This document shows positions 7,007 to 32,006 of a stretch of 32,006 nt of DNA, piece after piece. The translations under genes were made by a program, and so were the position numbers. This DNA comes from Candidatus Nitrosocosmicus sp. (GTDB taxonomy: Archaea; Thermoproteota; Nitrososphaeria; Nitrososphaerales; Nitrososphaeraceae): the NCBI GenBank assembly GCA_025934495.1, contig JAICXY010000035.1:1-32006 (forward strand). The letters run 5' to 3'. The notes beneath the pieces were generated by a model. It was given only the letters and a program-made list of their open reading frames with translations. It made no database searches and was not told where the DNA came from. Numbering within the stretch: the stretch's first letter is position 1; the number at the start of each line of letters is the position of its first letter.

Positions 7007-9211
7007 GTGAAAAAAACTGAGATCTTACATGGTCAAGATAACATTAAAAAAAGAACTATAAATGATTTTCACCTAATACAGAATAGGTTAGATAATTGCA
7101 CTGATTCTACTGGCCCTTATGTAATTGATACGCCTTTATGGAATGAATTTCTTGAGCTTAAGAAAAAGGGAATAAAACTAAGACTTATCACGGAAATTAC
7201 TAAGGACAATATTGGTTACTCAAAAAAGATTGTCAAAGTATTTGAAACGAGGCACCTAGATGAAGTTAAAGGGAATTTTGGAATTGCAGACGGTAGAGAA
7301 TATGGTGGAGGTGCTAGCATAACAAAGGGAGAACCTCCAATTGAATTTATACGCAGTAATGTCAAAGCATTTGTTGACCAACAGCAGTTTTTCTTTGAAA
7401 CTTTATGGAATAAGGCAATCCCTGCTGAACAAAGAATAAGAGAAATCGATGAAGGAATAGAACCGATAAAAACCAAAATATTGGAAAATCGCGAAGAAAT
7501 ATATAGATACTTTGTTAAATCAATAGAAAAATCCAATCAATTGTATATCTGTTCATCCATTGGTGGGCTATATATGGTTTATAATAATTTCTTTAACTTG
7601 TATAAGGAAATTATAGGAAAACAAAAAAGACATGATGAATATAATGGAGTCAAATGGCTTACTTTTATAGATGATAACAAAAATAGTATTGAAACGGTCA
7701 AGTCATTTTTAAATGAGGGTATACAAATAAGGCATATAAAAAATCACCCATCAATGAATTTTTGGGTAGACAACAACAACATTCATGCAACAATTGGAGC
7801 AATGGATAAGGACGGGACAATAGATAAATTATTAGTGAGCAATGAACCTGTATATGTTAACCATTTTATATCCTATTTCCAAGATTTATGGAATAACCAA
7901 GGGATTGATGCTAAAGAAAGGATTAAAGATATTGAAGAGGGCATGGAATATGATATTGAAGTAATAAGACATTCAGATAGAACCCTGAATATTTATCTAA
8001 ATATTGTCAAATCCTCTCGAAGCGAAATATTTTTTATACTTCCAACACCCAAGGCTTTTGTCCGCCAGTTTAAAACAATGTATTTAGCTAGTCAAGTATC
8101 AAAAGAAAGAAAAGTTAAAGTTAGGATATTGACACCTAAAGATGAAATAGTCGAGAATTTTATAAAGCATTTACTAAAAGAAGAAAATGGAAACTCAAAT
8201 GATTCAATCGTTTCTAATTCTGATGGTGATATAAAAGTTAGATACATTGAGCAGATGTCATATACCAAATCATCAATTGTGATAGTAGACCGGAAAGAAT
8301 CTCTAGTGATGGAACTCAAAGACGATACAAAAGATTCTTTTACCCAGGCGATAGGACTTAGCACACACTCAACTAGTAAAGCAAGTGTATTGTCATATGT
8401 AGCAATATTTGAGAACTTGTGGAAACAATCCGAATTATATCAGGAGATAAAAGAAACAAATGAAAAACTAGAATCTAAAGATAAAGTTCTCAACGAGTTT
8501 ATCCATATTGCATCTCATGAATTAAGAAATCCGATACAACCAATTCTAAGTTTATCTCAATTAGTTAAATCAGAATTATCAAAAAAAATAGAGTTAGGAA
8601 CAGATAAAAACAAGATTTTTAATTTGCTGGATGTTATTATACGTAATGCAAAAAAACTAAATAAACTTACAGATGATGTTTTAGATATAGCTAAAATTGA
8701 AACAAATTCACTTATCCTCAACATCGAAATATTTAATTTAAAAGACTTGATACAAGATTTGATAGATGATTACAAAAGTCAACAAAAAAATGACACATGC
8801 AATATAGAATTGTATTTTAATATAGACGGACAGCAAAAAGATCTAGATAATAATCTCTTTCTTATAGAAGCAGACAAGGCAAGAATATCACAAGTAGTTT
8901 CTAATCTATTAATCAATGCCTTGAAATTTACAAATAAAGATTGTTTGATACAAGTTACCATAGAACGAAAGGTAATAGGCAATATGCGAAAAGAGGCTAT
9001 TGTAACCATAAAAGACACAGGAACAGGTATCGATCCTGAGATAATACCAATATTGTTCACAAAGTTTGCATCAAAATCGGACAAAGGAACCGGATTAGGG
9101 CTATATATTTGCAAGAATATTGTTGATGCCCATGGCGGTAAGATATGGGCTAAGAACAATGAAGACAAAAAAGGCGCGACATTTTCTTTCAGTCTACCTC
9201 TTGATAATTAA
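7007..9211 (+). CDS. Soluble sensor histidine kinase with three tandem sensor modules
   Basis: 734 residues, GTG start, no membrane segment: a cytosolic sensor kinase. The C-terminal third has H-box ASHELRNPIQPI with phospho-acceptor His504, N-box NLLINALKF (N633/N637), G1 DTGTGIDPE (about 670) and G2 GTGLGLYICK (about 700). The N-terminal two thirds comprise three roughly 150-residue modules. Module A (about 1-155) includes ITEITKDNIGYSKK and ends EQRIREIDEGIEP; module B (about 158-310) ends KERIKDIEEGMEY; module C (about 315-475) ends at SYVAIFENLWKQSELY. A short coiled coil leads into the kinase. Modules A and C recur in the kinase at 12.0 kb. The sensor region resembles TrmB/PLD-like folds in layout, but I cannot name the ligand. 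No response regulator adjoins it. Confidence 0.88.
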   Translation: MKKTEILHGQDNIKKRTINDFHLIQNRLDNCTDSTGPYVIDTPLWNEFLELKKKGIKLRLITEITKDNIGYSKKIVKVFETRHLDEVKGNFGIADGREYGGGASITKGEPPIEFIRSNVKAFVDQQQFFFETLWNKAIPAEQRIREIDEGIEPIKTKILENREEIYRYFVKSIEKSNQLYICSSIGGLYMVYNNFFNLYKEIIGKQKRHDEYNGVKWLTFIDDNKNSIETVKSFLNEGIQIRHIKNHPSMNFWVDNNNIHATIGAMDKDGTIDKLLVSNEPVYVNHFISYFQDLWNNQGIDAKERIKDIEEGMEYDIEVIRHSDRTLNIYLNIVKSSRSEIFFILPTPKAFVRQFKTMYLASQVSKERKVKVRILTPKDEIVENFIKHLLKEENGNSNDSIVSNSDGDIKVRYIEQMSYTKSSIVIVDRKESLVMELKDDTKDSFTQAIGLSTHSTSKASVLSYVAIFENLWKQSELYQEIKETNEKLESKDKVLNEFIHIASHELRNPIQPILSLSQLVKSELSKKIELGTDKNKIFNLLDVIIRNAKKLNKLTDDVLDIAKIETNSLILNIEIFNLKDLIQDLIDDYKSQQKNDTCNIELYFNIDGQQKDLDNNLFLIEADKARISQVVSNLLINALKFTNKDCLIQVTIERKVIGNMRKEAIVTIKDTGTGIDPEIIPILFTKFASKSDKGTGLGLYICKNIVDAHGGKIWAKNNEDKKGATFSFSLPLDN

Positions 9212-12009: not shown

Positions 12010-13821
12010 TTGACAGTACCTGAAAATATCAATACAAATATCGAAAAAACTCAGGTTCTATATGGCACAGAGAACTCGGTATCATGCGGAGTTAAATTCA
12101 TGCAAAATGCAAAAGAAAAAATGGATCTTTTTGGAGACAAAAACGGACCTTCCATCATTATAAAATATAAAGAGTACAAAGATAACTACATCAAAGCAAG
12201 AGATCGAGGTGCAAAAATTAGATTTGTTACCGAGATAACAAAGGATAACATCCAATACTGTAAAGAAGTGAGAAAAATTGTTGATGAATTTAGACATTTT
12301 GATGGATTTAGAGGAGGGATAGCTGTAAGTGAATTAGAGTTTATGGGTACAACGGTATTAAAAGAAGAACAACGTTTAACCCTTGTTATACAAAGTAAAC
12401 AAAAAGAGGTAGTAGAACAGCAGCAGTATATTTTCAATACAATATGGGAAAAAGCCATTCCATATGAACAAAGAATTAGAGAAATAGAACAAGGCATCGA
12501 GGAGCCTGAATTTTTAAATACAATTAGAGAACCACGAGAAATACAAAATCTTGTGCACAAGATAATCGATTCCTCAAAGGAAGAAATAATAGCAATATTG
12601 ACTCCGCCATCATCATCATCATCTTTTTCCAAGGATATTGTCTTAAAAATAAATGAAAAAATATCATCACCTTCTACTAAAAACAAAATCAAATCTAAAA
12701 TTTTGGTTCCATCGTCATCATCACAATCATCTTCTTTTAACAAATCCAACGATAATAATTTAGATATAGTTGATGATGACGATGCTAATTCTTCTTACTT
12801 GTTCAATCCAGCAGAAAACATTCAAATAAAGTATCTTCAGAAGAAACTGCTACAGCCTACAATATCCATACTAGTAATAGATAAAAAATATTTTCTTGTA
12901 GTTGGTTTAAACGATGGTGAGGGTAACTTTGACGATATTTCTGATACAATCGGGTTAGCACTGTACTCAAATAATAGTCCTCTTGTTTTAACCTACCTGG
13001 CAATATTCAATGCCTTGTGGCATCAAGTTGATCTATACAACAAGATAAGCCAAATATACAAGTCTCTTTTAGCTAAAGATGAGGCTCAGCAGGAGGTTAT
13101 TAATATCGCGGCCCATGAACTGCGCAATCCCCTGCAACCAATAATTGGATTTATAAAGGTTTTACATTCATCTGGAAATCCAATAACAGAAAATTATAAT
13201 GAAATGTTAAACATTATTGCAAGAAATGCAATAAAACTCCAAAGGCTATCTGAGGATATTTTAGATGTTACAAAATTAGAGAATGATAATTTTAAAATAC
13301 AAAAAGAAGAATTCGATCTCAATGAATTGATATTATCTGTAATTCATGATTTTAAACATGAGGCTGAGAAAAAAAATGCAAAGGTAAAAATATCAAATCA
13401 AAATGAAAAAAATATCAAATCAAAAACAGGATCAGTATCATCTTCGTCAGCTAATCCTGTCATAATTTTTGCAGATAAATATAGAATCTGTCAAGTTATC
13501 ACCAACCTTTTAATCAATGCGATACAATTTACCAAAGATGGAGAAATAACCATATCTTTTTGGAAAAAAACAGATAAAAAAAATACTAAAAATGATACTG
13601 TTTGTATTTCAGTTAATGATACAGGAACAGGCATATCTGCCGATATGATGCCTAAGATATTTACGGCCTTTGCAACCAAATCAAATAAGGGCACGGGTTT
13701 GGGACTATATATTTGCAAGAAAATTGTAGAAGCTCATGGTGGTACAATATGGGTCGAAAATAACAGCAACGAAGGAAAAAAAGGATCTACATTTACATTT
13801 GAGTTGCCATTAAATAATTGA
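12010..13821 (+). CDS. Soluble sensor histidine kinase, two-module paralogue
   Basis: 603 residues, TTG start placed just after a TATA box. No membrane segments. It matches the 7.0-kb kinase module for module but lacks the middle module B. Module A (about 1-165) carries FVTEITKDNIQYCKEV and EQRIREIEQGIEE; module C (about 170-345) ends TYLAIFNALWHQVDLYNK. The kinase core has H-box AAHELRNPLQPI with His369, N-box NLLINAIQF, G1 DTGTGISAD and G2 GTGLGLYICK. Module C and the ATPase domain contain serine-rich low-complexity inserts (S201-205, S235-242 and SVSSSSAN) encoded by TCA/TCT runs, absent from the paralogue. The pair probably arose by duplication, with separate loss or gain of a sensor module. 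Signal and partner are unknown. Confidence 0.88.
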   Translation: MTVPENINTNIEKTQVLYGTENSVSCGVKFMQNAKEKMDLFGDKNGPSIIIKYKEYKDNYIKARDRGAKIRFVTEITKDNIQYCKEVRKIVDEFRHFDGFRGGIAVSELEFMGTTVLKEEQRLTLVIQSKQKEVVEQQQYIFNTIWEKAIPYEQRIREIEQGIEEPEFLNTIREPREIQNLVHKIIDSSKEEIIAILTPPSSSSSFSKDIVLKINEKISSPSTKNKIKSKILVPSSSSQSSSFNKSNDNNLDIVDDDDANSSYLFNPAENIQIKYLQKKLLQPTISILVIDKKYFLVVGLNDGEGNFDDISDTIGLALYSNNSPLVLTYLAIFNALWHQVDLYNKISQIYKSLLAKDEAQQEVINIAAHELRNPLQPIIGFIKVLHSSGNPITENYNEMLNIIARNAIKLQRLSEDILDVTKLENDNFKIQKEEFDLNELILSVIHDFKHEAEKKNAKVKISNQNEKNIKSKTGSVSSSSANPVIIFADKYRICQVITNLLINAIQFTKDGEITISFWKKTDKKNTKNDTVCISVNDTGTGISADMMPKIFTAFATKSNKGTGLGLYICKKIVEAHGGTIWVENNSNEGKKGSTFTFELPLNN

Positions 13822-15587: not shown

Positions 15588-16463
15588 ATGGTAGATGATA
15601 TAAAGTCGTTTCTTGTAGTATCCATTCCTTCAATGGTAATGTTTGGAATGCGTCATGCACTTGATGTCGATCACATTACTGCAATAGATAATCTTGTAAT
15701 ATTGCATAATGCAAAAAAAAGAGCTCGTTATGTTGGCACCGGATTTGGTATGGGACATATGATAGCAGTACTGGCTGAAATGCTCTTGATTATATATGTA
15801 ATAGGTGGCGCAACTAATGGCAAAATAGATGATCTCTCTCTTTGGGGTGGTGTAATAGGAGCTATTTCTCTGGCTACAATAGGCGCTATTAATATATATT
15901 CTATGAAAAAATGGGGCAAAACAGGCTCTGCTATCATTGCAGGCAAAGTATCAAATAGAACTGGAATATTAGGACCTTTTGGTTCTGCTTTAATTACAGG
16001 CATGGTCTTTGGTTTAGGATTTGATACTGCTACTCAAATTTCGGCTCTTACATTGTCAGCTGTTGCGTCTGCTACACTTGGAGTACAGGTAGCTTTGTTA
16101 CTTGCAGGATTTTTCGCTATGGGTATGATACCTGTTGACACTCTGGATAGCGTTGTCCTTCGTTCAGCTTTCAATAGGATATTTGATAAAAAAGGATTTC
16201 GATACATGTCATATGCATTAAGTGGATCTGCTATGACAATTGCAGCACTTGCTTCTTATGGGATATTTACAGGCTCTCAAATTTTACCAGCATTAACAGG
16301 CCCTTGTTTAGCGATAGTAATTATAGGAGCAAGTTTTGTATATGGATTTACAACACGCAACAGAAGAAAAACAGTAAATGAAGAAATACAACAAAAGGAC
16401 CTGCAAGATACATTATCAGCGAGAATAGTAGCAGCAGACATTAATCATGATAATAATAAATAG
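15588..16463 (+). CDS. NiCoT-family nickel/cobalt permease
   Basis: A 291-residue polytopic membrane protein that imports Ni2+ or Co2+. The diagnostic TM2 signature RHALDVDHITAID (22-34, with the HxxxxDH metal ligands) and the TM5 signature LGFDTATQI (143-151) are both present, as is the later GMIPVDTLDS motif (179-188). Alternating hydrophobic stretches give about seven to eight helices; the C-terminus is polar and ends in HDNN. ATG start two bases after a TGATAC/GTATCA dyad. In ammonia oxidisers nickel is needed mainly for urease, and Ni-dependent ureohydrolases are also known; a ureohydrolase lies 6 kb downstream. Whether Ni or Co is preferred cannot be read from the sequence. Confidence 0.92.
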   Translation: MVDDIKSFLVVSIPSMVMFGMRHALDVDHITAIDNLVILHNAKKRARYVGTGFGMGHMIAVLAEMLLIIYVIGGATNGKIDDLSLWGGVIGAISLATIGAINIYSMKKWGKTGSAIIAGKVSNRTGILGPFGSALITGMVFGLGFDTATQISALTLSAVASATLGVQVALLLAGFFAMGMIPVDTLDSVVLRSAFNRIFDKKGFRYMSYALSGSAMTIAALASYGIFTGSQILPALTGPCLAIVIIGASFVYGFTTRNRRKTVNEEIQQKDLQDTLSARIVAADINHDNNK

Positions 16464-16937: not shown

Positions 16938-17297
16938 TTATTTTGCAAGTAATACATCATCGCCAGTTAAATTCGTTCCTAGTTCATAGGCGTTAGAAAC
17001 GTCCTTAATAAATAGAACACCATATGGTTCTGTTTGTAATTCAAAACCATTTCTAATCGCATCAACTATCGATTTTGCAATAGAATCAGGTACAACGGAG
17101 ATAACCAGGATCCTCCCTATAAACTTTGGAATAATTGTTCTGCCAGTTTGATATGAATGGATTATTTCGGAAGTCGCTCTAGGAGTTCTTCCAGTACCTT
17201 GAATATTAAAAAAAGTAATACCTGCATTATGTTTTTGAAGAATATCAGTCACTTTAGAAAGATCATCAGAACGAATAAAAATATTTATTTCTTTCAT
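16938..17297 (-). CDS. P-II-like nitrogen/metabolite signalling protein
   Basis: 119 residues, the usual length for GlnB/GlnK proteins, which are trimers that sense ATP/ADP and 2-oxoglutarate and bind transporters or enzymes. The N-terminus MKEINIFIRSDDLSKVTDIL fits beta1-alpha1. GITFFNIQGTGRTP corresponds to the GxTxxxxxGxGR segment, followed by a T-loop (about 41-56) with a Tyr (IIHSYQTGR) and by RILVISVVPDSIAKSIVDAI for beta3-alpha2. The C-terminal YGVLFIKDVSNAYELGT matches the beta4 and C-loop region. The T-loop is divergent from classical GlnB. Thaumarchaea carry several such paralogues. It stands alone, not beside amtB, so the partner is unknown. Confidence 0.8.
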   Translation of the reverse strand: MKEINIFIRSDDLSKVTDILQKHNAGITFFNIQGTGRTPRATSEIIHSYQTGRTIIPKFIGRILVISVVPDSIAKSIVDAIRNGFELQTEPYGVLFIKDVSNAYELGTNLTGDDVLLAK

Positions 17298-17525: not shown

Positions 17526-18050
17526 CTATGAATTTAACTTTATTTTAGTAAATAAAAATGGATCTAGTTTTTTTGCTGCGTTTAAGCAAAATTGTGCTTT
17601 TTCTGAATTTCCAAGTAATTCATAACATCTACCTTTATTATACCATGCTTTTGAATAACTTTCATCAAAAGATATAGCATTGTCAAAACAATTTATTGCC
17701 TCATCTATTTTTTTTAGATTTACAAAAGTCAACCCTTTATTATGCCATGTAATTGAATTTTTTGGATTTAAATTTAATGCTTTTGAATACATCTCTAAAG
17801 ATTCATTGAATTTACCTATTTTATCCAATACTAATGCCTTGTCGCCATAAGAGCAATCATAATTTGGGTCTATGGTAATTGCTTGTTCAAAAAGTTTTAA
17901 CGCCTCATTAAAATTATGCCGGCTAATTTCCTTTTCTCCCTGTTTTACTAATTCTTTTAGAACCATGTTTTTGTCAGTCTTTTCATTCCCATTAGGAATA
18001 AAATTACCATTAAATTTAAAAAATTTTTTAATTATTTTAAACAATTGCAT
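17526..18050 (-). CDS. Small TPR protein
   Basis: 174 residues with four tetratricopeptide repeats from about residue 32: ISRHNFNEALKLFEQAITID, KIGKFNESLEMYSKALNLNP, NLKKIDEAINCFDNAISFDE and a last unit ELLGNSEKAQFCLNAAKKLD. The short basic N-terminus (QLFKIIKKFFKFNG) is not a clear signal or membrane segment. TPRs form a superhelix for protein-protein contacts; the partner is not evident. The ATG overlaps the last 19 nt of the upstream small gene, so the two are probably one operon with coupled translation. Confidence 0.82.
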   Translation of the reverse strand: MQLFKIIKKFFKFNGNFIPNGNEKTDKNMVLKELVKQGEKEISRHNFNEALKLFEQAITIDPNYDCSYGDKALVLDKIGKFNESLEMYSKALNLNPKNSITWHNKGLTFVNLKKIDEAINCFDNAISFDESYSKAWYNKGRCYELLGNSEKAQFCLNAAKKLDPFLFTKIKLNS

Positions 18051-18298
18051 ATCCCTAACCTATTTAATAAGTAAAAACACAAGCTAATGTCTCTTTTATT
18101 TATTTTTGGTATTGTTATATTTAGGTCATTTTGTAAATCCTGTAGAAAATCATAAATTTCATTGACAGATACTCTCTCGTTTTTATCTTTTGTATCGATA
18201 TTTGTTACATATAAGGAAATATAATAAGATAAAAAGGTGGATTTACAAAGATTGTCAAAATTGTTAAGGTTTTTCATAGATTCTATAAAACTTTGCAT
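18032..18298 (-). CDS. Hypothetical 88-residue protein, coupled to the TPR gene
   Basis: Starts MQSFIESMKNLNNFDNLCKS and ends INKRDISLCFYLLNRLGICN. No family recognised. Mostly helical composition with a charged middle (TNIDTKDKNERVSVNEIYDF). Its 3' end overlaps the start of the TPR gene by 19 nt on the same strand, an arrangement typical of real archaeal operons and the main argument that it is a gene. Confidence 0.55.
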   Translation of the reverse strand: MQSFIESMKNLNNFDNLCKSTFLSYYISLYVTNIDTKDKNERVSVNEIYDFLQDLQNDLNITIPKINKRDISLCFYLLNRLGICNCLK

Positions 18299-18470: not shown

Positions 18471-19238
18471 ATGAAAATTAAAAACATATCAGTTAATCTT
18501 ATAGATATAGCAGAAGAAAATGTCCGTAAGGATTTTTCTTTTGGTAAAGATTCTAGCGATAACCTAATAAAAGAACATCTTTCAAAATTCGATCTACTCC
18601 AGCCTGTAGTAGTTCGTTTTGATATCCAAACTAAGAGATATAAATTATTGATAGGACGAAGGCGGTTTTTGGCATTGCAAGATAGAGGAGAGAAAGAAAT
18701 TCCAGCAGTAATTACAAAGTTAAAGGGGGCAGAGGCAGAGGCAGCTTCATTATTTGAAAATTTAATACGCAAGGATCTCTCACCATTAGAAAAAGCAAAA
18801 ATGGTAAAAAGGTTAGTTGATTCCACAAAGTCCGGAATTACAGGAGTTTCTAAAAAATATGGTCTTCCAAAAAGTACAATTAGTGAATGGTTAAGCATTT
18901 TAACCTTGCCAAAACAATTGCAAGAAAAAATCGAAAGTGGGGAGATAACATCATTTGAAGGTAGAAAAATAGCAAGGCAGCCAAAAGAAATTCAAGAAAA
19001 ATTAGCATCAACTGCACCGGATTCTTTAGAGGAGCAAATGATAAATTTGGGAGTAAAGAGAGGGGCTCCAAAAGGATTATTAACAGTTAGATTAGTCTTT
19101 AATCCATCTAAACCAAAAGACAAAAATCTATGGAATAGTCTTGAAGAAAAAGCAAAACAAAATGGTAATGATATAAATGATTTTGTAAAAGAAATACTTT
19201 CAAATTATGTAAAAAATAATAGTGTTGTCACACCTTAA
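18471..19238 (+). CDS. ParB/Spo0J-like DNA-binding protein
   Basis: 255 residues. The N-terminal ParB nuclease-like domain (about 5-110) has LLIGRRRFLALQ at 59-70, matching the GxRR CTP-binding motif of ParB, and ENLIRKDLSPLEKA at 96-109, matching the ENxxRxxL box. A helix-turn-helix follows (GVSKKYGLPKSTISEWLSIL, 125-144). The C-terminal 90 residues differ from bacterial dimerisation domains. ParB proteins bind parS-like sites and slide as CTP-dependent clamps in chromosome or plasmid segregation; some archaeal homologues are transcription factors. No parA neighbour is present, so it may be a stand-alone regulator. It ends 9 nt from the convergent usp gene. Confidence 0.85.
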   Translation: MKIKNISVNLIDIAEENVRKDFSFGKDSSDNLIKEHLSKFDLLQPVVVRFDIQTKRYKLLIGRRRFLALQDRGEKEIPAVITKLKGAEAEAASLFENLIRKDLSPLEKAKMVKRLVDSTKSGITGVSKKYGLPKSTISEWLSILTLPKQLQEKIESGEITSFEGRKIARQPKEIQEKLASTAPDSLEEQMINLGVKRGAPKGLLTVRLVFNPSKPKDKNLWNSLEEKAKQNGNDINDFVKEILSNYVKNNSVVTP

Positions 19239-19247
19239 TAATAACTA

Positions 19248-19706
19248 CTATCTTATTATTAACACCGGGCAGGTGGAGTGACTACTTAAACCTGAAGCAG
19301 TACTTCCTAATAACAATTGCTTAAACTTTGAAAGACCTCTGGAACCTAAAACAACCAAATCGATATTATTTTCTTTTATATATTCTATAATAATTTTAAG
19401 TTTAGAACTACCCTCATCTTCCAATATTGTTAGTGCAGTTTTAATTCCTTTATCTTTTGCCTCTTTTTGTATTGGTTTTATCCATTCTTCTGCTTCCTGT
19501 TTCCTAACTCTTTTAAATCCATCTACTAAATCCATATCCCCATAACGGGCTCTGAGACCTATTGCTCCTCCTTGTTTGATATTATCAAGGACGTGAAGGA
19601 AAGTGAGAGTCGAATTTTCTAAAGTGGCAATATGAATAGCATATTCAGCTGCCTTTTTTGAAGTGTCTGACCCATCGAAAGGCATTAATACGTTATTAAA
19701 AAGCAT
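19248..19706 (-). CDS. Universal stress protein (UspA family)
   Basis: 152 residues, the full length of a single-domain Usp. The first strand NNVLMPFDGSDTSKKAAEYA holds the conserved Asp, and the C-terminus has the ATP-binding motif G-2x-G-9x-G-S: G121, G124, G134, S135 in GSRGLSKFKQLLLGSTASGL. It is therefore of the ATP-binding type. Usps accumulate under stress and often bind other proteins. It lies 10 nt behind the small gene at 19717-20004 on the same strand, so the two are very likely co-transcribed. Confidence 0.92.
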   Translation of the reverse strand: MLFNNVLMPFDGSDTSKKAAEYAIHIATLENSTLTFLHVLDNIKQGGAIGLRARYGDMDLVDGFKRVRKQEAEEWIKPIQKEAKDKGIKTALTILEDEGSSKLKIIIEYIKENNIDLVVLGSRGLSKFKQLLLGSTASGLSSHSTCPVLIIR

Positions 19707-19716
19707 TCTAAAAAAA

Positions 19717-20004
19717 TTATATTGGAGTCATTGTATCAATAACCCTTACATAACTTACTTGTCCATCTTTTTCATGGATCAAAAGATCTACCGTATATTT
19801 GATACCATTTAATAAAAAGGTAACTTGAATATCCCATGAATCTTTTGATGGAGTATCAGTTGATCCGGATTTAGCAGCAATCTGGCCTGAAGTATATGGA
19901 AAAACTTCTCTTACTTTGAAATCTTCTATGTTGGGTCCAAAAAGTGCGTTTATTGCTTTCTTCGATGCCTCTTCAATTTCAATATCTGTTGTCACACATG
20001 TCAT
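19717..20004 (-). CDS. Conserved-looking 95-residue hypothetical protein, Usp partner
   Basis: Starts MTCVTTDIEIEEASKKAINA and contains DSWDIQVTFLLNGIKYTVDL then HEKDGQVSYVRVIDT. A helix followed by a beta-sheet in which W-x-V-x-V and G-x-V-x-Y-x-R patterns recall GvpO or PepSY-like small domains; that resemblance is weak. No signal peptide. It is the first gene of the pair with the universal stress protein, and its minus-strand TATA element (about 20026-20034) sits about 25 nt upstream of the ATG, suggesting a leaderless transcript. Confidence 0.65.
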   Translation of the reverse strand: MTCVTTDIEIEEASKKAINALFGPNIEDFKVREVFPYTSGQIAAKSGSTDTPSKDSWDIQVTFLLNGIKYTVDLLIHEKDGQVSYVRVIDTMTPI

Positions 20005-20179: not shown

Positions 20180-21883
20180 ATGGCATATATGGAATTACTA
20201 GATAATGATACTCACCGAATTAAAGGTGGTCAAATAAGACAGTTTAATATTTTAGCTGCAAAGATGTTAAAAGAGATGATAGGAAGTACGTTTGGCCCAC
20301 TAGGAAAAGAAAAAATATATATCGATATTATTGGTGAGGCAACGTTCACTAAAGATGGTGCGACGTTCCTACGTAAGATCGATGTTGGTCATCCCGGAGC
20401 AAAGGTATTGATAGATGCATCAAATACCGTGGATAATGAAGTAGGTGATGGCACGACCTCCGTTGTTATTATTGCAGGGATGCTTTTAGAAAAAGCCGAA
20501 GGTTTATTAAAAAATAATATAGCCCCTGCGATAATTATCAATGGATATGATATTGGTTTAAAACTTTCTCTTGAATTATTACACAATATTTCAAGAAAAG
20601 AGTGTAATAACGATTTCAAAATTATTGAAAAACTTGCAATGACATGTTTAGGAACAAAGATCATTTCATACAACAACAAAACTGAAATTAAAAAAATTGT
20701 GGACATAACAGTTAATGCAATTAAAGCAATCTATAATTATGATAATAATAATATCGATATAGACGATATAAAAATAGAAGAAAAAATAGGGCATATGTTG
20801 GATAGTCAGCTAATTAATGGTACTGTAATAGATAAAACAATAGATAATAGGTCTATGCCCAAATTTATGGAGCATGCCAAAATTCTTCTAATAGATGAAG
20901 ACTTGGAATTACAGAGAACAAAATCAGATGTAGAAATAACCATAAATAATCCCAAACAAATGCAACTTTATATTGATGAAGAAAATACAATAATAAAGCA
21001 TAAAATCCAAAATATAATTGACTGTGGGGCAAATGTTGTAATTTCTCGTAAAGGTATTGATTTGAGGTCACAGGACTATTTATCTAAAGCTGGGATAATG
21101 TCAATTAGACGAGTAAAAGAGAACGATTTAATGTGGTTAGAAAAAGCAACTGGGGGAAAGATAACTAAAGAATTAGCCAGCCATGATTTGAAAAAGAATT
21201 TGGGATATGCTGGAAAAGTTCATGAAAAAATTGTAGGTGATGATAAAATGGTATTTGTTGAAGAATGCAAATCTCCAAAATCCGTGACTATTCTATTACG
21301 GGCTAATTCAAAAATGGTTCTTGATGAATATCACCGTGCTATACTCAGTACAATAATACTCATAAAAAACTTTATTTCTAAACCTTCAGTTGTAATAGGA
21401 GGTGGTGCTTGTGAAGCATTAATTGCTCACTTCTTAAGAAAAAAAGCGTTAGAATATAGCGGAAGGGAACAAATAGTATTGATGAAATTCGCCGAGGCGT
21501 TAGAGGAAATTCCTTTGGCAATTGCAAAAAATTCCGGCATGGATGTAACTGATACATTAATCCACCTTAAAACAAAATTATCACAAAAAACATGTGATAG
21601 CAGTACAAAGTGGTTTGGAATAAATATCCTCAATAAGAATATTGATGAGTTAGGTTGGGAAATTATTGAACCTACCATATTAAAAGAACAGGTGTTAAAT
21701 ACAGCCATAGAAGTTAGTCGCCTATTAATAAATATAGATGATGTAATAATCAAAAAGCCATTAATGGATACCCATACGCATGAAGATGGCACCGAACATT
21801 CACATCAAGGAGGAAGTATAAAGCACGATCACTACTTTGACAAATTAGGCAAACAACAAAGGACTCATCATCACTACTATTAA
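20180..21883 (+). CDS. Divergent thermosome (group II chaperonin) with His-rich tail
   Basis: 567 residues. Thermosomes fold proteins in an ATP-driven double ring. Equatorial motifs are present: GPLGKEK (normally GPxGMDK), TFTKDGATFLRKI, HPGAKVLI, GDGTTS with Asp90, and later VVIGGGACEA and NSGMDVTDTLIHLK. Aligned without gaps to the thermosome segment ILIRGGT..VERALxDAI, this protein reads ILLRANSKMVLDEYHRAILS, so the catalytic Asp of the (N/H/D)DA motif is Ser390. ATP hydrolysis is therefore expected to be impaired. In place of the usual GGM-type end, the last 38 residues hold nine histidines (DTHTHEDGTEHSH, KHDH, THHHYY), a likely metal-binding tail. It is a specialised paralogue, not the housekeeping chaperonin; a nickel link is inference from the tail and neighbouring genes. 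Confidence 0.9.
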   Translation: MAYMELLDNDTHRIKGGQIRQFNILAAKMLKEMIGSTFGPLGKEKIYIDIIGEATFTKDGATFLRKIDVGHPGAKVLIDASNTVDNEVGDGTTSVVIIAGMLLEKAEGLLKNNIAPAIIINGYDIGLKLSLELLHNISRKECNNDFKIIEKLAMTCLGTKIISYNNKTEIKKIVDITVNAIKAIYNYDNNNIDIDDIKIEEKIGHMLDSQLINGTVIDKTIDNRSMPKFMEHAKILLIDEDLELQRTKSDVEITINNPKQMQLYIDEENTIIKHKIQNIIDCGANVVISRKGIDLRSQDYLSKAGIMSIRRVKENDLMWLEKATGGKITKELASHDLKKNLGYAGKVHEKIVGDDKMVFVEECKSPKSVTILLRANSKMVLDEYHRAILSTIILIKNFISKPSVVIGGGACEALIAHFLRKKALEYSGREQIVLMKFAEALEEIPLAIAKNSGMDVTDTLIHLKTKLSQKTCDSSTKWFGINILNKNIDELGWEIIEPTILKEQVLNTAIEVSRLLINIDDVIIKKPLMDTHTHEDGTEHSHQGGSIKHDHYFDKLGKQQRTHHHYY

Positions 21884-22196
21884 ATCAAAAATAAGGAAAG
21901 GATTTATTGTATTATCTTTTATTAACGATTTAGACAAATAACATATAGCGTATACAGATTTTCATAATTGGAAATTTTTTTCCATTTTTTAATATTTCTT
22001 ATCGAATGTATTTTATTCTGATAACTCTATGATAAAAGAAGATAAAAGAATTTAAACTTAATTCCGTAATAAATTAATTCTTTTTGGTTCTTTGTGTATT
22101 GTATCAATCTAAGAACAAATAAAAAAAATTATTTCATGCCATATCACAAATGTATGGGGATATTATTAACGGCTTACATAAATATTACTTTAGTAA
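21884..22196. other. Spacer between convergent chaperonin and ureohydrolase genes
   Basis: AT-rich with several T runs that could end transcription from both sides; no gene seen. Confidence 0.5.
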
Positions 22197-23318
22197 TCAT
22201 TTATTTCTCTCTGGAATATTTGCTTTAGGACCATTTCCGAAATCATATGTGTGTCCTTTCCCTCGGTAAAACTTTGGTCTTACTGGTTTTCCTTCTTTTT
22301 CACCTCGTTTTGTTAATGATAAACCGGCCATTAGTTCGACTATCAACCTATTAGCCAAACCAGATGTAATACCTCCATTATAGGAATTAACATCACTTAC
22401 ATCATATGTCGGTGATACTTCCACAAGATCAAATGCAAATCGATCAGGATCAAAAGACGTAGAAAGCAATCTCATTAATCTCATTCCCTCCCTAGATGTT
22501 AAACCATTTGGCTCTGGTTCACCTGTACCAGGTGCATATGCCGGATCAAATGTATCAATATCCCAACTTACATATACTGCGTCAACATTGTCATTTGCTC
22601 TATCTGCGGCCTCTTTGGCTATTTGATCTATGCCCAATTCTTCTACATCTAGCATAGTAAACCATTGAAAATCTTGGTCCGCCATCCATTTATATAAATC
22701 AGGTCCAGGCCAATATCCTCTGGGACCGATTAATGTATAATTTTTCCCTTTGAGACAACCTAATTCCATTATCCTTCTAATATGAGCGCCATGATCATAT
22801 TTGAAACCACACAGTCCTTGAGGTGCACAATCTGCATGACAGTCTATATGAATCATACCTATATTTTTATACTTTTTAGATAGCGCGCGAACATTAGCAA
22901 AAGTTACTGAATGATCACCACCTAATATAATCGGTATAGCATCAATATCAAGCACTTCTTTTATTTTATTTGTCATCCTTCTGTGAGATTCAATAACATC
23001 GCCTGGAGAAATATTTACATCACCATAATCTACTGCTTTAAAAACCCCAAATGGATCCACCCCTGTTTCAATATTGAAATGCTCGTATGGTGGAGATGGA
23101 ACGGTGGAAGCAGCTCTAATTGCTCTTGGACCATAACGGGTACCTGGTCTTATTGTTGTTCCAAAATCGAAAGGTTCTCCAACAATTGCAATATCTGGTT
23201 TGATTTTTTTTAATTCCTCATACTGTTTTACCAAAGGTAGCTTTAGAAATGTGGGTATACCGACAAAAATTGGTTCATCATTTCCCTTGTATGAGTCACC
23301 ATAAAATTCCATTCCCAT
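22197..23318 (-). CDS. Ureohydrolase (agmatinase/guanidinase superfamily), long form
   Basis: 373 residues. These binuclear-metal enzymes release urea from guanidino compounds. All metal ligands are present: GGDHS (133-137, His136), HIDCHAD (157-163: D159, H161, D163) and SWDIDTFDP (251-259: D253, D255). The Ala of the usual DAHxD motif is Cys160. The substrate loop APGTGEPEPNG and the acidic LVEVSP follow. About 35 extra N-terminal residues include PIFVGIPTFLKLP, like the G-I-x-T-F-x-x-L-P start of guanidinobutyrases and guanidine hydrolases and not seen in short agmatinases, so agmatinase is only one option. The urea product would feed nitrifier urease. Divergent from a sodium:solute symporter; two palindromes lie between them. 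Substrate and metal (Mn or Ni) are not decided by sequence. Confidence 0.9.
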   Translation of the reverse strand: MGMEFYGDSYKGNDEPIFVGIPTFLKLPLVKQYEELKKIKPDIAIVGEPFDFGTTIRPGTRYGPRAIRAASTVPSPPYEHFNIETGVDPFGVFKAVDYGDVNISPGDVIESHRRMTNKIKEVLDIDAIPIILGGDHSVTFANVRALSKKYKNIGMIHIDCHADCAPQGLCGFKYDHGAHIRRIMELGCLKGKNYTLIGPRGYWPGPDLYKWMADQDFQWFTMLDVEELGIDQIAKEAADRANDNVDAVYVSWDIDTFDPAYAPGTGEPEPNGLTSREGMRLMRLLSTSFDPDRFAFDLVEVSPTYDVSDVNSYNGGITSGLANRLIVELMAGLSLTKRGEKEGKPVRPKFYRGKGHTYDFGNGPKANIPERNK

Positions 23319-23665: not shown

Positions 23666-25186
23666 TTGGTTATTATAGATAGTTATGGTATTGCAGTCCT
23701 ATCATTCATGGGACTGGTATTAACCGTAGGAGTACTTACATCACAACTAGTAAAAAAAAGCAGTAAAAGGTATATGGTTGCAGGAAAGAGCTTACCATTA
23801 TTTTTTGTAGGAACAATGCTTGCAGCTCAATCTATAGATGGTAATTCTTCATTGGGTAACGTATCACTCGTATACCAATTTGGATTTTGGTCCGGAGCAG
23901 CAATTCCTATAGGATTAGCAGTATGTTTAATATTAACTGGAACAATATATGGTCAAAAATTAAATAGAATGTCCATGCTTACACTTCCAGATTTTTATTT
24001 TAGGCGATATGGAGTTCCAGCTGAAAGTATATCGTCAATAATATTGATGATAAGTTTTATTGTTCTTGTTGCAGGAAATTTTGCTGCAGGAGGTTACATA
24101 CTTTCTACAGTTTTACATATTCCACTAGTTTGGGCCATGTTGATTGTTTCTGGTGCGGTACTGATTTATACATTTGCAGGAGGTCTATTTTCATCGGCAT
24201 ATACAGATATTTTTCAAGTCTATTTAACCGTAGGAGCTTTTTGGGCAGCATTTCTTTATTTTGCTCTAGGGTTTTCAGGAGTACATTTAGGAACCATTCT
24301 AACATCAGCTCCTGCTGGTTATTTGGATATTAGCGGATTAACCGATATGAAAAATGGTGCTTTAACCAACTGGGCGTCAATTTTAGCCTTAGGGTTAGGT
24401 GATATAGTTGCATTGGATTTTATGGAACGGGTGTTCTCTGCAAAAAGTGGAAAAACGGCAAGAAATGGCGCTTTAATGGCTGCTGGGCTGACAATTTCAA
24501 TTATTGTTCCTGTAAGTATGATGGGGATAATTGGATTACATTTTTTACCTAAAACAACTGATCCATATACCGTATATCCAACAATAGCAATTCATTATTT
24601 ACCATTTCCAATTGGAGCTGCATTATTAATGGGTGTAATAGGAGCATCAATGTCTACGGCTAACGGAGGTTTGCTTGCAATTTCTAGTGTAATAGCAAGA
24701 AACTTAATTCAGCGCGATTTTCTCAGAACTTTGTTAAAAAAGGCCGGATTAAACGATAAAAAATTGTTACTGACTACGCGAATGGTTACAATACCAATTA
24801 TGCTAACTGGCTTAATATTAGGTTCTACAATTCCACGTCCTGGAGTATATTTAATTTTGGCATTTGACATAGTTTTTGCAGGGGCATTTGCACCATTGAC
24901 TTTAGGTTTATTTTGGAAGAAATCAAATTTACCGGCAGCACTAGCATCACTAATCGTGGGGTCGTCTTTAAGATTGTTAATGTTTTTTATTACCCCAAAA
25001 GAATTAGCTGGTATAGATACTCTTTTACCACCAATCGTTTCGTTCATAGTATTTATAATCGTAGCATTAGTTACACAAAATAAATATCCCGGGTTAAAAC
25101 GAGCTGGCGTGATAGAATATATTCCACCTGAAGAGGATGTGGTCAATGGGGAGGATTTGAAGGGATATAAGCAATATAATCAATGA
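23666..25186 (+). CDS. Sodium:solute symporter (SSS family)
   Basis: 506 residues, about 13 hydrophobic segments, the SSS (LeuT-fold) layout. The helix with GVIGASMSTANGGLLAISSV carries Ser330-Thr331 in the position of the SSS Na2-site Ser/Thr; most family members have STAD where this has STAN. An early SIDGNSSLGNV segment and YTFAGGLFSSAYTDIFQVYL are also typical of the family. Start TTG at 23666 follows a TATA box at leaderless spacing; no ATG lies nearby. The cytosolic tail is acidic (IPPEEDVVNGEDL). Family members carry urea, proline, acetate and other small solutes. Divergent transcription from a ureohydrolase suggests a guanidino compound, urea or amino-acid substrate, but this is inference. 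Confidence 0.88.
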   Translation: MVIIDSYGIAVLSFMGLVLTVGVLTSQLVKKSSKRYMVAGKSLPLFFVGTMLAAQSIDGNSSLGNVSLVYQFGFWSGAAIPIGLAVCLILTGTIYGQKLNRMSMLTLPDFYFRRYGVPAESISSIILMISFIVLVAGNFAAGGYILSTVLHIPLVWAMLIVSGAVLIYTFAGGLFSSAYTDIFQVYLTVGAFWAAFLYFALGFSGVHLGTILTSAPAGYLDISGLTDMKNGALTNWASILALGLGDIVALDFMERVFSAKSGKTARNGALMAAGLTISIIVPVSMMGIIGLHFLPKTTDPYTVYPTIAIHYLPFPIGAALLMGVIGASMSTANGGLLAISSVIARNLIQRDFLRTLLKKAGLNDKKLLLTTRMVTIPIMLTGLILGSTIPRPGVYLILAFDIVFAGAFAPLTLGLFWKKSNLPAALASLIVGSSLRLLMFFITPKELAGIDTLLPPIVSFIVFIIVALVTQNKYPGLKRAGVIEYIPPEEDVVNGEDLKGYKQYNQ

Positions 25187-25258
25187 AATTGTTAACAATT
25201 CCTTTTATAACATTTTTTAAAAGAAAACTAATAAAGAGAAAAATATAAAAATTATTTG

Positions 25259-25780
25259 ATGCCTATGAAAGGGTATGCGACCATTGGATTAAAACCATCC
25301 GTGTTAACTAAACTACAAAAGTCCACTGACGAGTATTATCCTGGGATGTTTTTACCTAGCGCATTAATAATTATGATGAATGAAATAAAACGTGAATATT
25401 ATTCAGTCGAAACACACGATTTTAAAATGGATTTCTCTGGAATGTATACTTCATTGACTATTAGGTTAGATGTTAAAACGTGGTTAAGGGAAAAATATGA
25501 AATTCATAAAGATGAATATGCTTTGAAATACAAATTAAGGAATTTTACACAATTTGCAGGAATATTTATGATAAATATGTTTGAATCAAAAACAGATACC
25601 CAAAGATATTTAATAAAATTAAAAGAATCCGATTTCCTTTGGCTTGAAGAGGAATATGCAAAAAGAAAAGAAGAATATAAGAAAAAATTTGGAATCTATG
25701 GGTTTGATAAATTTGCGGATATATTTATTAAAGAAATATTCGAAAAGATAAACTCTGCCAAAAAAATTCTCACAATCTGA
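25259..25780 (+). CDS. Three-module ribbon-helix-helix-like protein, unknown role
   Basis: About 173 residues; the upstream TTG at 25256 is also in frame, but ATG 25259 is preferred. The protein appears to be three versions of a 40-50-residue unit, each a strand followed by helices: YATIGLKPSVLTKLQKSTDE, SLTIRLDVKTWLREKYEIHK and RYLIKLKESDFLWLEEEYAK. Each is then closed by a hydrophobic helix (FLPSALIIMMNEI, FTQFAGIFMINMF, FDKFADIFIKEIF). A strand with alternating residues followed by two helices is the ribbon-helix-helix plan of small DNA-binding regulators, but a triple chain is unusual. It begins 72 nt after the symporter on the same strand and could regulate it. No family name can be given. 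Confidence 0.7.
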   Translation: MPMKGYATIGLKPSVLTKLQKSTDEYYPGMFLPSALIIMMNEIKREYYSVETHDFKMDFSGMYTSLTIRLDVKTWLREKYEIHKDEYALKYKLRNFTQFAGIFMINMFESKTDTQRYLIKLKESDFLWLEEEYAKRKEEYKKKFGIYGFDKFADIFIKEIFEKINSAKKILTI

Positions 25781-31236: not shown

Positions 31237-32006
31237 TTATTTATTTTTTTGTTTTTGTTGTATTAATTGTTTAGCATCTAATGCAATTTTGTCGTTAGGA
31301 TTTATTTTTAAAATTTTATCTAAATATATCTCTGATCCGCTATAGTTGCCCAGTTTCAAAAGCACATTTACCATATCATGATATATCTCAATGTTAATAG
31401 GATCAATAGACAAGTATTTATTAAAGGATTTTACAGCGTCAGTATAGTTACCTATTGCTGATAACATCTCCCCTTTACCTTGTAATGCAAAAGTATCATT
31501 TGGATTTATTTTTAATAAATTATCAAAATATCCTGATCCTATTACTTTGTTAATATAGGATATAGCTTCGGTGTGATTGCCTAATTTATCTAGTATTATA
31601 CCTTTGTTTGCCATACTATTATAATCGGATGAAGTGATATTCAAAGCCTTGTTAAAAGAGTCAATAGATCCAGTATAGTTTTTTAAATAGTACAAGGCCA
31701 AGCCCAAATTATTTAAAATACCAGTATCATTTGGCGCAACAGAAAGGGCTTTAATAAAGTAATTTATAGCACTCACATAATTGCCCGATTTATCAAATAA
31801 ATACACCCCCTTTGAATTTAATGCAGTAGTATCATTTGGATTTATAGACAGAGCCTTGTCATAGTATTGTATAGCTGAAGTGTGATTGCCAAGGTTATTT
31901 AAAACAGTAGCTTTGCTGTCCAAGGCAGCAGTATCATTTGGATTTATAGACAGAGCCTTGTCATAGTATTGTATAGCTGAAGTGTGATTGCCAAGGTTAT
32001 TTAAAA
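31237..32006 (-). CDS. TPR-repeat protein, C-terminal part (runs off the window)
   Basis: The frame is open from the right edge to the stop at 31237. The visible 255 or so residues are tandem 34-residue tetratricopeptide repeats of the type GNHTSAIQYYDKALSINPND, with a short basic tail (LIQQKQKNK). The two units nearest the edge are almost identical in DNA over 76 nt (31831-31906 and 31933-32006, 102 nt apart), indicating recent unit duplication. An internal TTG at 31923 is not the start, since coding sequence continues upstream without a stop. Such long TPR arrays are usually protein-binding scaffolds, sometimes at the cell surface; the N-terminus that would tell is outside the window. Confidence 0.85.
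   Translation of the reverse strand, partial: LNNLGNHTSAIQYYDKALSINPNDTAALDSKATVLNNLGNHTSAIQYYDKALSINPNDTTALNSKGVYLFDKSGNYVSAINYFIKALSVAPNDTGILNNLGLALYYLKNYTGSIDSFNKALNITSSDYNSMANKGIILDKLGNHTEAISYINKVIGSGYFDNLLKINPNDTFALQGKGEMLSAIGNYTDAVKSFNKYLSIDPINIEIYHDMVNVLLKLGNYSGSEIYLDKILKINPNDKIALDAKQLIQQKQKNK

Follow-up and report, generated by a model that had tools for sequence, protein, structure and literature searches.

The window analysed here is the 32,006-nucleotide stretch at positions 1-32,006 of contig JAICXY010000035.1 from Candidatus Nitrosocosmicus sp. (assembly GCA_025934495.1; genome code G000), and its open reading frame at 20180-21883 encodes a complete group II chaperonin, hereafter HisCpn (Table 1). 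The Pfam family Cpn60_TCP1 covers residues 30-526, placing the protein in the family at full length, and its best relatives in the PDB are thermosomes (1e-109). A Foldseek search with an AlphaFold2 model (pLDDT 84, the chaperonin body being confident and the C-terminal tail low-confidence) returned the M. maripaludis chaperonin (Mm-Cpn; 3rus) as the top match (TM 0.85/0.93), with which HisCpn shares the fold, ~37% sequence identity, the LGPxG and GDGT nucleotide motifs and the Lys160 sensor. The genome encodes four chaperonins in all, namely HisCpn, two thermosomes (42 and 41% identity to HisCpn) and a divergent protein, CPN4 (28%).

HisCpn is part of a conserved genomic island, the gene content of which was counted over 43 HisCpn loci (Table 1). 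In many of these loci ureABC, ureEFGH and nickel transporters share the island; the island in the window is without urease and without a UreA-like gene. The latter, a urease gamma paralogue of ~125 aa, forms an operon with the arginase-family gene c2 at L082:9665-10063 and in 36 other loci, is missing in the window as well as in its closest relatives, and looks undescribed as a partner of an arginase-family enzyme. A decayed copy between HisCpn and c2 was considered and rejected, no remnant being seen in window positions 21881-22200. Two large histidine kinases (7007-9211 and 12010-13821) lie upstream of the island, and a TPR-repeat protein (31237-31923) is found at the right end of the window. 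For one soil clade, a 2024 study described the clustering of an SSS transporter and an ‘agmatinase’, leaving the chaperonin unmentioned (PMC11131427).

Table 1. Features of the HisCpn island in the window.
Feature	Coordinates	Strand	Evidence or occurrence
NicO nickel/cobalt transporter	15588..16463	+	Pfam NicO 1.1e-20; family in 9 island loci
P-II nitrogen regulatory protein	16938..17297	-	Pfam P-II 3.7e-10
TPR protein	17526..18050	-	22 loci
Small island protein	18032..18298	-	13 loci
ParB-like protein	18471..19238	+	18 loci
Universal stress protein	19248..19706	-	22 loci
c1, small conserved protein, divergent neighbour of HisCpn	19717..20004	-	37/43 loci
HisCpn, His-tailed group II chaperonin	20180..21883	+	567 aa; Cpn60_TCP1 430.9 bits
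Asp59 codon (Mm-Cpn Asp60 column), kept in window	20354..20356	+	lost in 19/42 relatives
Asp90 codon, GDGT motif (Mm-Cpn Asp91)	20447..20449	+	invariant in 42
Ser390 codon (catalytic Mm-Cpn Asp386 column)	21347..21349	+	alignment to Mm-Cpn
His-rich tail, residues 530-567, 9 His	21767..21880	+	probably flexible (low-confidence in model)
c2, extra arginase-family ureohydrolase, 373 aa	22197..23318	-	Pfam Arginase 1e-78; 34 loci
SSF sodium:solute symporter, candidate urea/organic-N transporter	23666..25186	+	33 loci
c5, conserved island protein	25256..25780	+	27 loci

The nine histidines noted in the last 38 residues by a preliminary description of this DNA were confirmed by counting, and compare with only 11 in the remaining 529 residues (P = 1e-6 when the amino-acid composition of the protein itself is taken into account). 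Six of them (His532, 534, 540, 542, 549 and 564) are invariant in 42 HisCpn sequences, as are Gly537, Gly557, Gln560 and Arg561. The proposal that this tail stands in place of the usual thermosome GGM end is likewise borne out, in that the C-termini of housekeeping paralogues are GGM repeats or acidic stretches; those of the two thermosomes of the same genome read GGMGGM... (L002) and GGMPPGGMDGMM (L003). With these paralogues lacking the tail and a tail-only search finding it about once per genome, an ordinary thermosome feature can be ruled out. In addition to the tail, eight species of one genus carry a second His-rich insert (14-17 His) directly after the position of the Mm-Cpn release loop, the sequence of which drifts while its place and histidine content are kept. 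The tail is probably metal-binding.

Of 400 genomes of the order, 88 proved to carry the tail in a tail-only search; they represent 25 genera and two families, the second of which, beside Nitrososphaeraceae, we take to be Nitrosopumilaceae; nearly all of these genomes have a single match, and nearly all matches are full-length frames of chaperonin size. A sample of 300 genomes from the phylum contained the tail in nine, all of the same two families, and in no other family. Orthologues from related genomes align through to the tail, and in the tree that the preliminary description had proposed, a quick tree with support given as SH-aLRT and without bootstrap, all 42 HisCpn sequences form one branch (SH-aLRT 100), which is the sister group of the thermosomes and lies at a great distance from CPN4. 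In both its C-terminus and its grouping HisCpn thus departs from housekeeping thermosomes. As far as sequence comparison goes, the His-tailed chaperonins are a separate, conserved line in two families of ammonia-oxidising archaea, extending well beyond one genome. Furthermore, Arg65, Lys66, Asn315 and Trp319 are invariant in the HisCpn clade, whereas thermosomes have other residues at these positions; the clade is therefore constrained rather than decaying, pointing to a new role that has been conserved. At one locus, L023 (G012:C45), the HisCpn frame is interrupted around residue 383, close to where the contig ends, reflecting a pseudogene, a frameshift or an assembly error.

Active site residues were assigned by reference to the Mm-Cpn sequence, which was verified with the help of PDB entries, among them that of the D386A mutant (5w74). 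The preliminary reading of this region held: Mm-Cpn Asp386 aligns to Ser390 in the window, so that the Asp of an ATP-hydrolysing thermosome is replaced, and Asp91 aligns to the retained Asp90 of GDGTT. Lys160 (Mm-Cpn Lys161) and Asp59 are also retained in the window protein, and Asp90, Gly91, Thr92, Gly39 and Pro40 of the GDGT and LGPxG nucleotide loops are invariant across the 42 sequences. The catalytic column itself varies (Asp 21, Asn 14, Ser 7), as does the Asp60 column (Asp 23, His 12, Ser 4, Asn 3), requiring by parsimony a minimum of four and three changes, respectively. Aligning the protein with the verified Mm-Cpn and with the 42 orthologues rules out a chance or mis-aligned Asp column. 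Because the D386A variant of Mm-Cpn binds ATP without hydrolysing it (PMC5019054), it is plausible that the HisCpn of the window is ATPase-dead, a reading that is tempered by the difference between Ser and Ala and by the retention of Asp59, Asp90 and Lys160. The tie between Asp loss and tail that the preliminary description implied does not hold, the tail being clade-wide and yet the column still Asp in half of the sequences. Since the tail is common to the entire clade while this column is variable, the tail predates the Asp loss in the sublineage of the window; judged from the alignment, loss of the catalytic Asp is recurrent and later than the tail, with Ser in the window sublineage, Asn elsewhere, and the Asp60 column also lost in some members.

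The arginase-family neighbour c2 is an additional enzyme, because each of eight genomes examined, whether or not it has c2, carries two other arginase homologues (~30% identity). The enzyme is unusually conserved: across 41 homologues, 213 of its 373 positions never vary, and neither do the six metal ligands (GGDH, DxHxD, DxD) of the arginase superfamily. To this superfamily also belong the nickel-dependent guanidinase GdmH and its comammox homologue, and c2 matches GdmH (chain 7esr) with 171.7 bits; however, the GTGWPEPGG motif of GdmH reads GTGEPEPNG in c2, where Glu replaces the specificity residue Trp305 (Synechocystis column). A guanidinase assignment for c2 was rejected on the absence of this Trp, and guanidinase was not found in ammonia-oxidising archaea (PMC11410670). 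The enzyme could be an ordinary Mn enzyme, the metal not being fixed by its sequence. At L128 (G120:C80) an internal TAG splits c2 into two frames.

At a cut-off of E <= 1e-80, c2 was found in 90 of the 400 genomes; ureC was present in 148. Among 209 high-quality genomes, 55 have both the HisCpn tail and c2, one has HisCpn only, four have c2 only and 149 have neither (phi 0.94), and inside the genus of the window the presence and absence of the two genes vary in step. HisCpn was not detected in the four c2-only genomes G020, G038, G110 and G156; the island of G038 (L119, G038:C10) retains c2, the UreA-like gene, urease and NicO, the chaperonin being absent. The two genes lie on one contig in 66 of 80 pairs, at a median distance of 3.3 kb and a maximum of 13.3 kb, and the remaining 14 pairs, on different contigs, may still be linked. 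As a consequence of this physical linkage the co-occurrence is confounded, and the island may simply pass down as a block.

Both a group II chaperonin and a His-rich metal-binding tail are, individually, known kinds. The nickel chaperones UreE, HypB and SlyD, as HisCpn, carry a His-rich terminal extension and are encoded near nickel enzyme genes, but they are not chaperonin rings. Mycobacterial GroEL1, whose His tail binds Cu(II) and which is reported to be a monomer (PMC10170517), is also a chaperonin paralogue in which a His-rich tail has replaced the GGM tail and for which a metal role has been proposed; it differs in being a bacterial, group I protein with a much shorter tail, a copper context and no link to a ureohydrolase. 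Closest in setting is the Hsp60 homologue of the thaumarchaeal urease locus, a chaperonin of ammonia-oxidising archaea whose gene accompanies those of urease and which was suggested to stabilise urease (Abby et al., 2018; PMC5797428); it corresponds to CPN4 here. CPN4 in the genome of the window lies at L110:7904-9463 (G000:C18, minus strand) within a second urease operon, ureABC-CPN4-x-EFGH, and at all nine loci of this kind it lies between ureC and ureE; the sole ureC found in the genome of the window is on another contig, with its own chaperonin. HisCpn is not this homologue: CPN4 forms a deep, separate branch with 28% identity, lacks the His tail and sits at a different locus, and the urease-locus Hsp60 was reported absent from Nitrosopumilales (PMC5797428), whereas HisCpn occurs in both families. 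The presence of CPN4 in the second urease operon does indicate that the chaperonin-urease pairing recurs, and shows that chaperonins pair with urea-metabolism metalloenzymes in these archaea more than once. Searches of the open-access PMC literature for thermosomes or group II chaperonins rich in histidine, and for chaperonins associated with urease or agmatinase, turned up no description of the present His-tailed clade; to the extent that open-access papers show, the combination, the conservation of the tail, the second His insert and the partnership with c2 are undescribed.

A metal-binding chaperone role is what we infer from the histidine content of HisCpn and its genomic context. Inherited with c2 and often with urease genes, HisCpn may be a metal-loading folding cage for these enzymes, and we put at about an even chance the reading that it is a dedicated chaperonin maturing the metalloenzymes of urea and guanidino-nitrogen metabolism, with a lumen that holds a transition metal. 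HisCpn subunits would assemble into a double ring, in which the tails would therefore be packed together inside the lumen around the equator, the site of the C-termini in thermosomes. There they would keep a divalent metal, most likely Ni2+ but possibly Mn, Co, Zn or Cu, in the vicinity of the enclosed client and thereby couple folding to metal loading; the main client would be c2, joined by type-1 urease in genomes that encode it. Where a lineage lacks Asp386, its ring might be slow-cycling, driven mainly by ATP binding, or dependent on active partner subunits. The fullest form of this proposal, in which a chamber lined by the tails, accompanied in one genus by His-rich release loops, loads metal into the folding ureohydrolase or urease, in several lineages without ATP hydrolysis, is put forward tentatively and as somewhat doubtful in its entirety.

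The preliminary description had envisaged a ring specialised either for metal storage or for folding a metalloenzyme; the latter part is strengthened by the genomic context (the linkage to c2 and urease), on which that description had not drawn, and a storage-only role would explain this linkage less well. An unlikely account along such lines is that HisCpn is no longer a foldase and serves through its tail as a cell-wide buffer, store or traffic factor for Ni or Cu, in the manner of the Cu(II)-binding, reportedly monomeric GroEL1 (PMC10170517). The recurrent loss of the ATPase Asp, the His tail and insert, and the NicO genes nearby would all fit, but half of the clade keeps Asp386 and all of it the GDGT loop, and a tie to one specific extra enzyme is unexpected for a general buffer. 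Recurrent loss of the hydrolysis site would be tolerated most easily in a hetero-oligomer, and the genome does encode two ordinary thermosome subunits, so that HisCpn might be a regulatory or adaptor subunit of mixed rings, adding a metal-binding tail or client specificity while housekeeping subunits hydrolyse ATP; given only ~42% identity to those subunits and many clade-specific changes in the core, we hold this to be quite unlikely.

That type-1 urease (UreABC) is the client and c2 a bystander of a urea island is suggested by the many loci, in Nitrososphaeraceae and Nitrosopumilaceae, in which HisCpn adjoins ureEFGH and ureABC, and by chaperonin-urease pairs elsewhere (CPN4; PMC5797428). 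Across the same 400 genomes, however, the association with the HisCpn tail is weaker for ureC (phi 0.54) than for c2 (phi 0.87), which led to the rejection of urease as sole partner; G029 and G035 possess HisCpn and c2 but not ureC, and the island of the window genome itself has no urease, leaving this account improbable. The strong physical linkage would also suit an ordinary thermosome paralogue that is merely carried along by a mobile nitrogen island, with a tail of no special role, but the invariance of tail histidines across two families, the clade-specific constraint and the independent His insert make this very improbable.

For the comammox guanidinase, a chaperone that loads nickel could not be identified (PMC11410670), and a chaperonin that couples folding to metal loading, if it is true of HisCpn, would offer a new answer to how a related enzyme acquires its metal without Hyp-type chaperones. 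The HisCpn clade would also provide a natural series of group II chaperonins with and without the hydrolytic Asp residues, useful for asking what purpose ATP hydrolysis serves. The ammonia-oxidising archaea are globally important nitrifiers, and c2 may reveal an unrecognised source of organic nitrogen for them.
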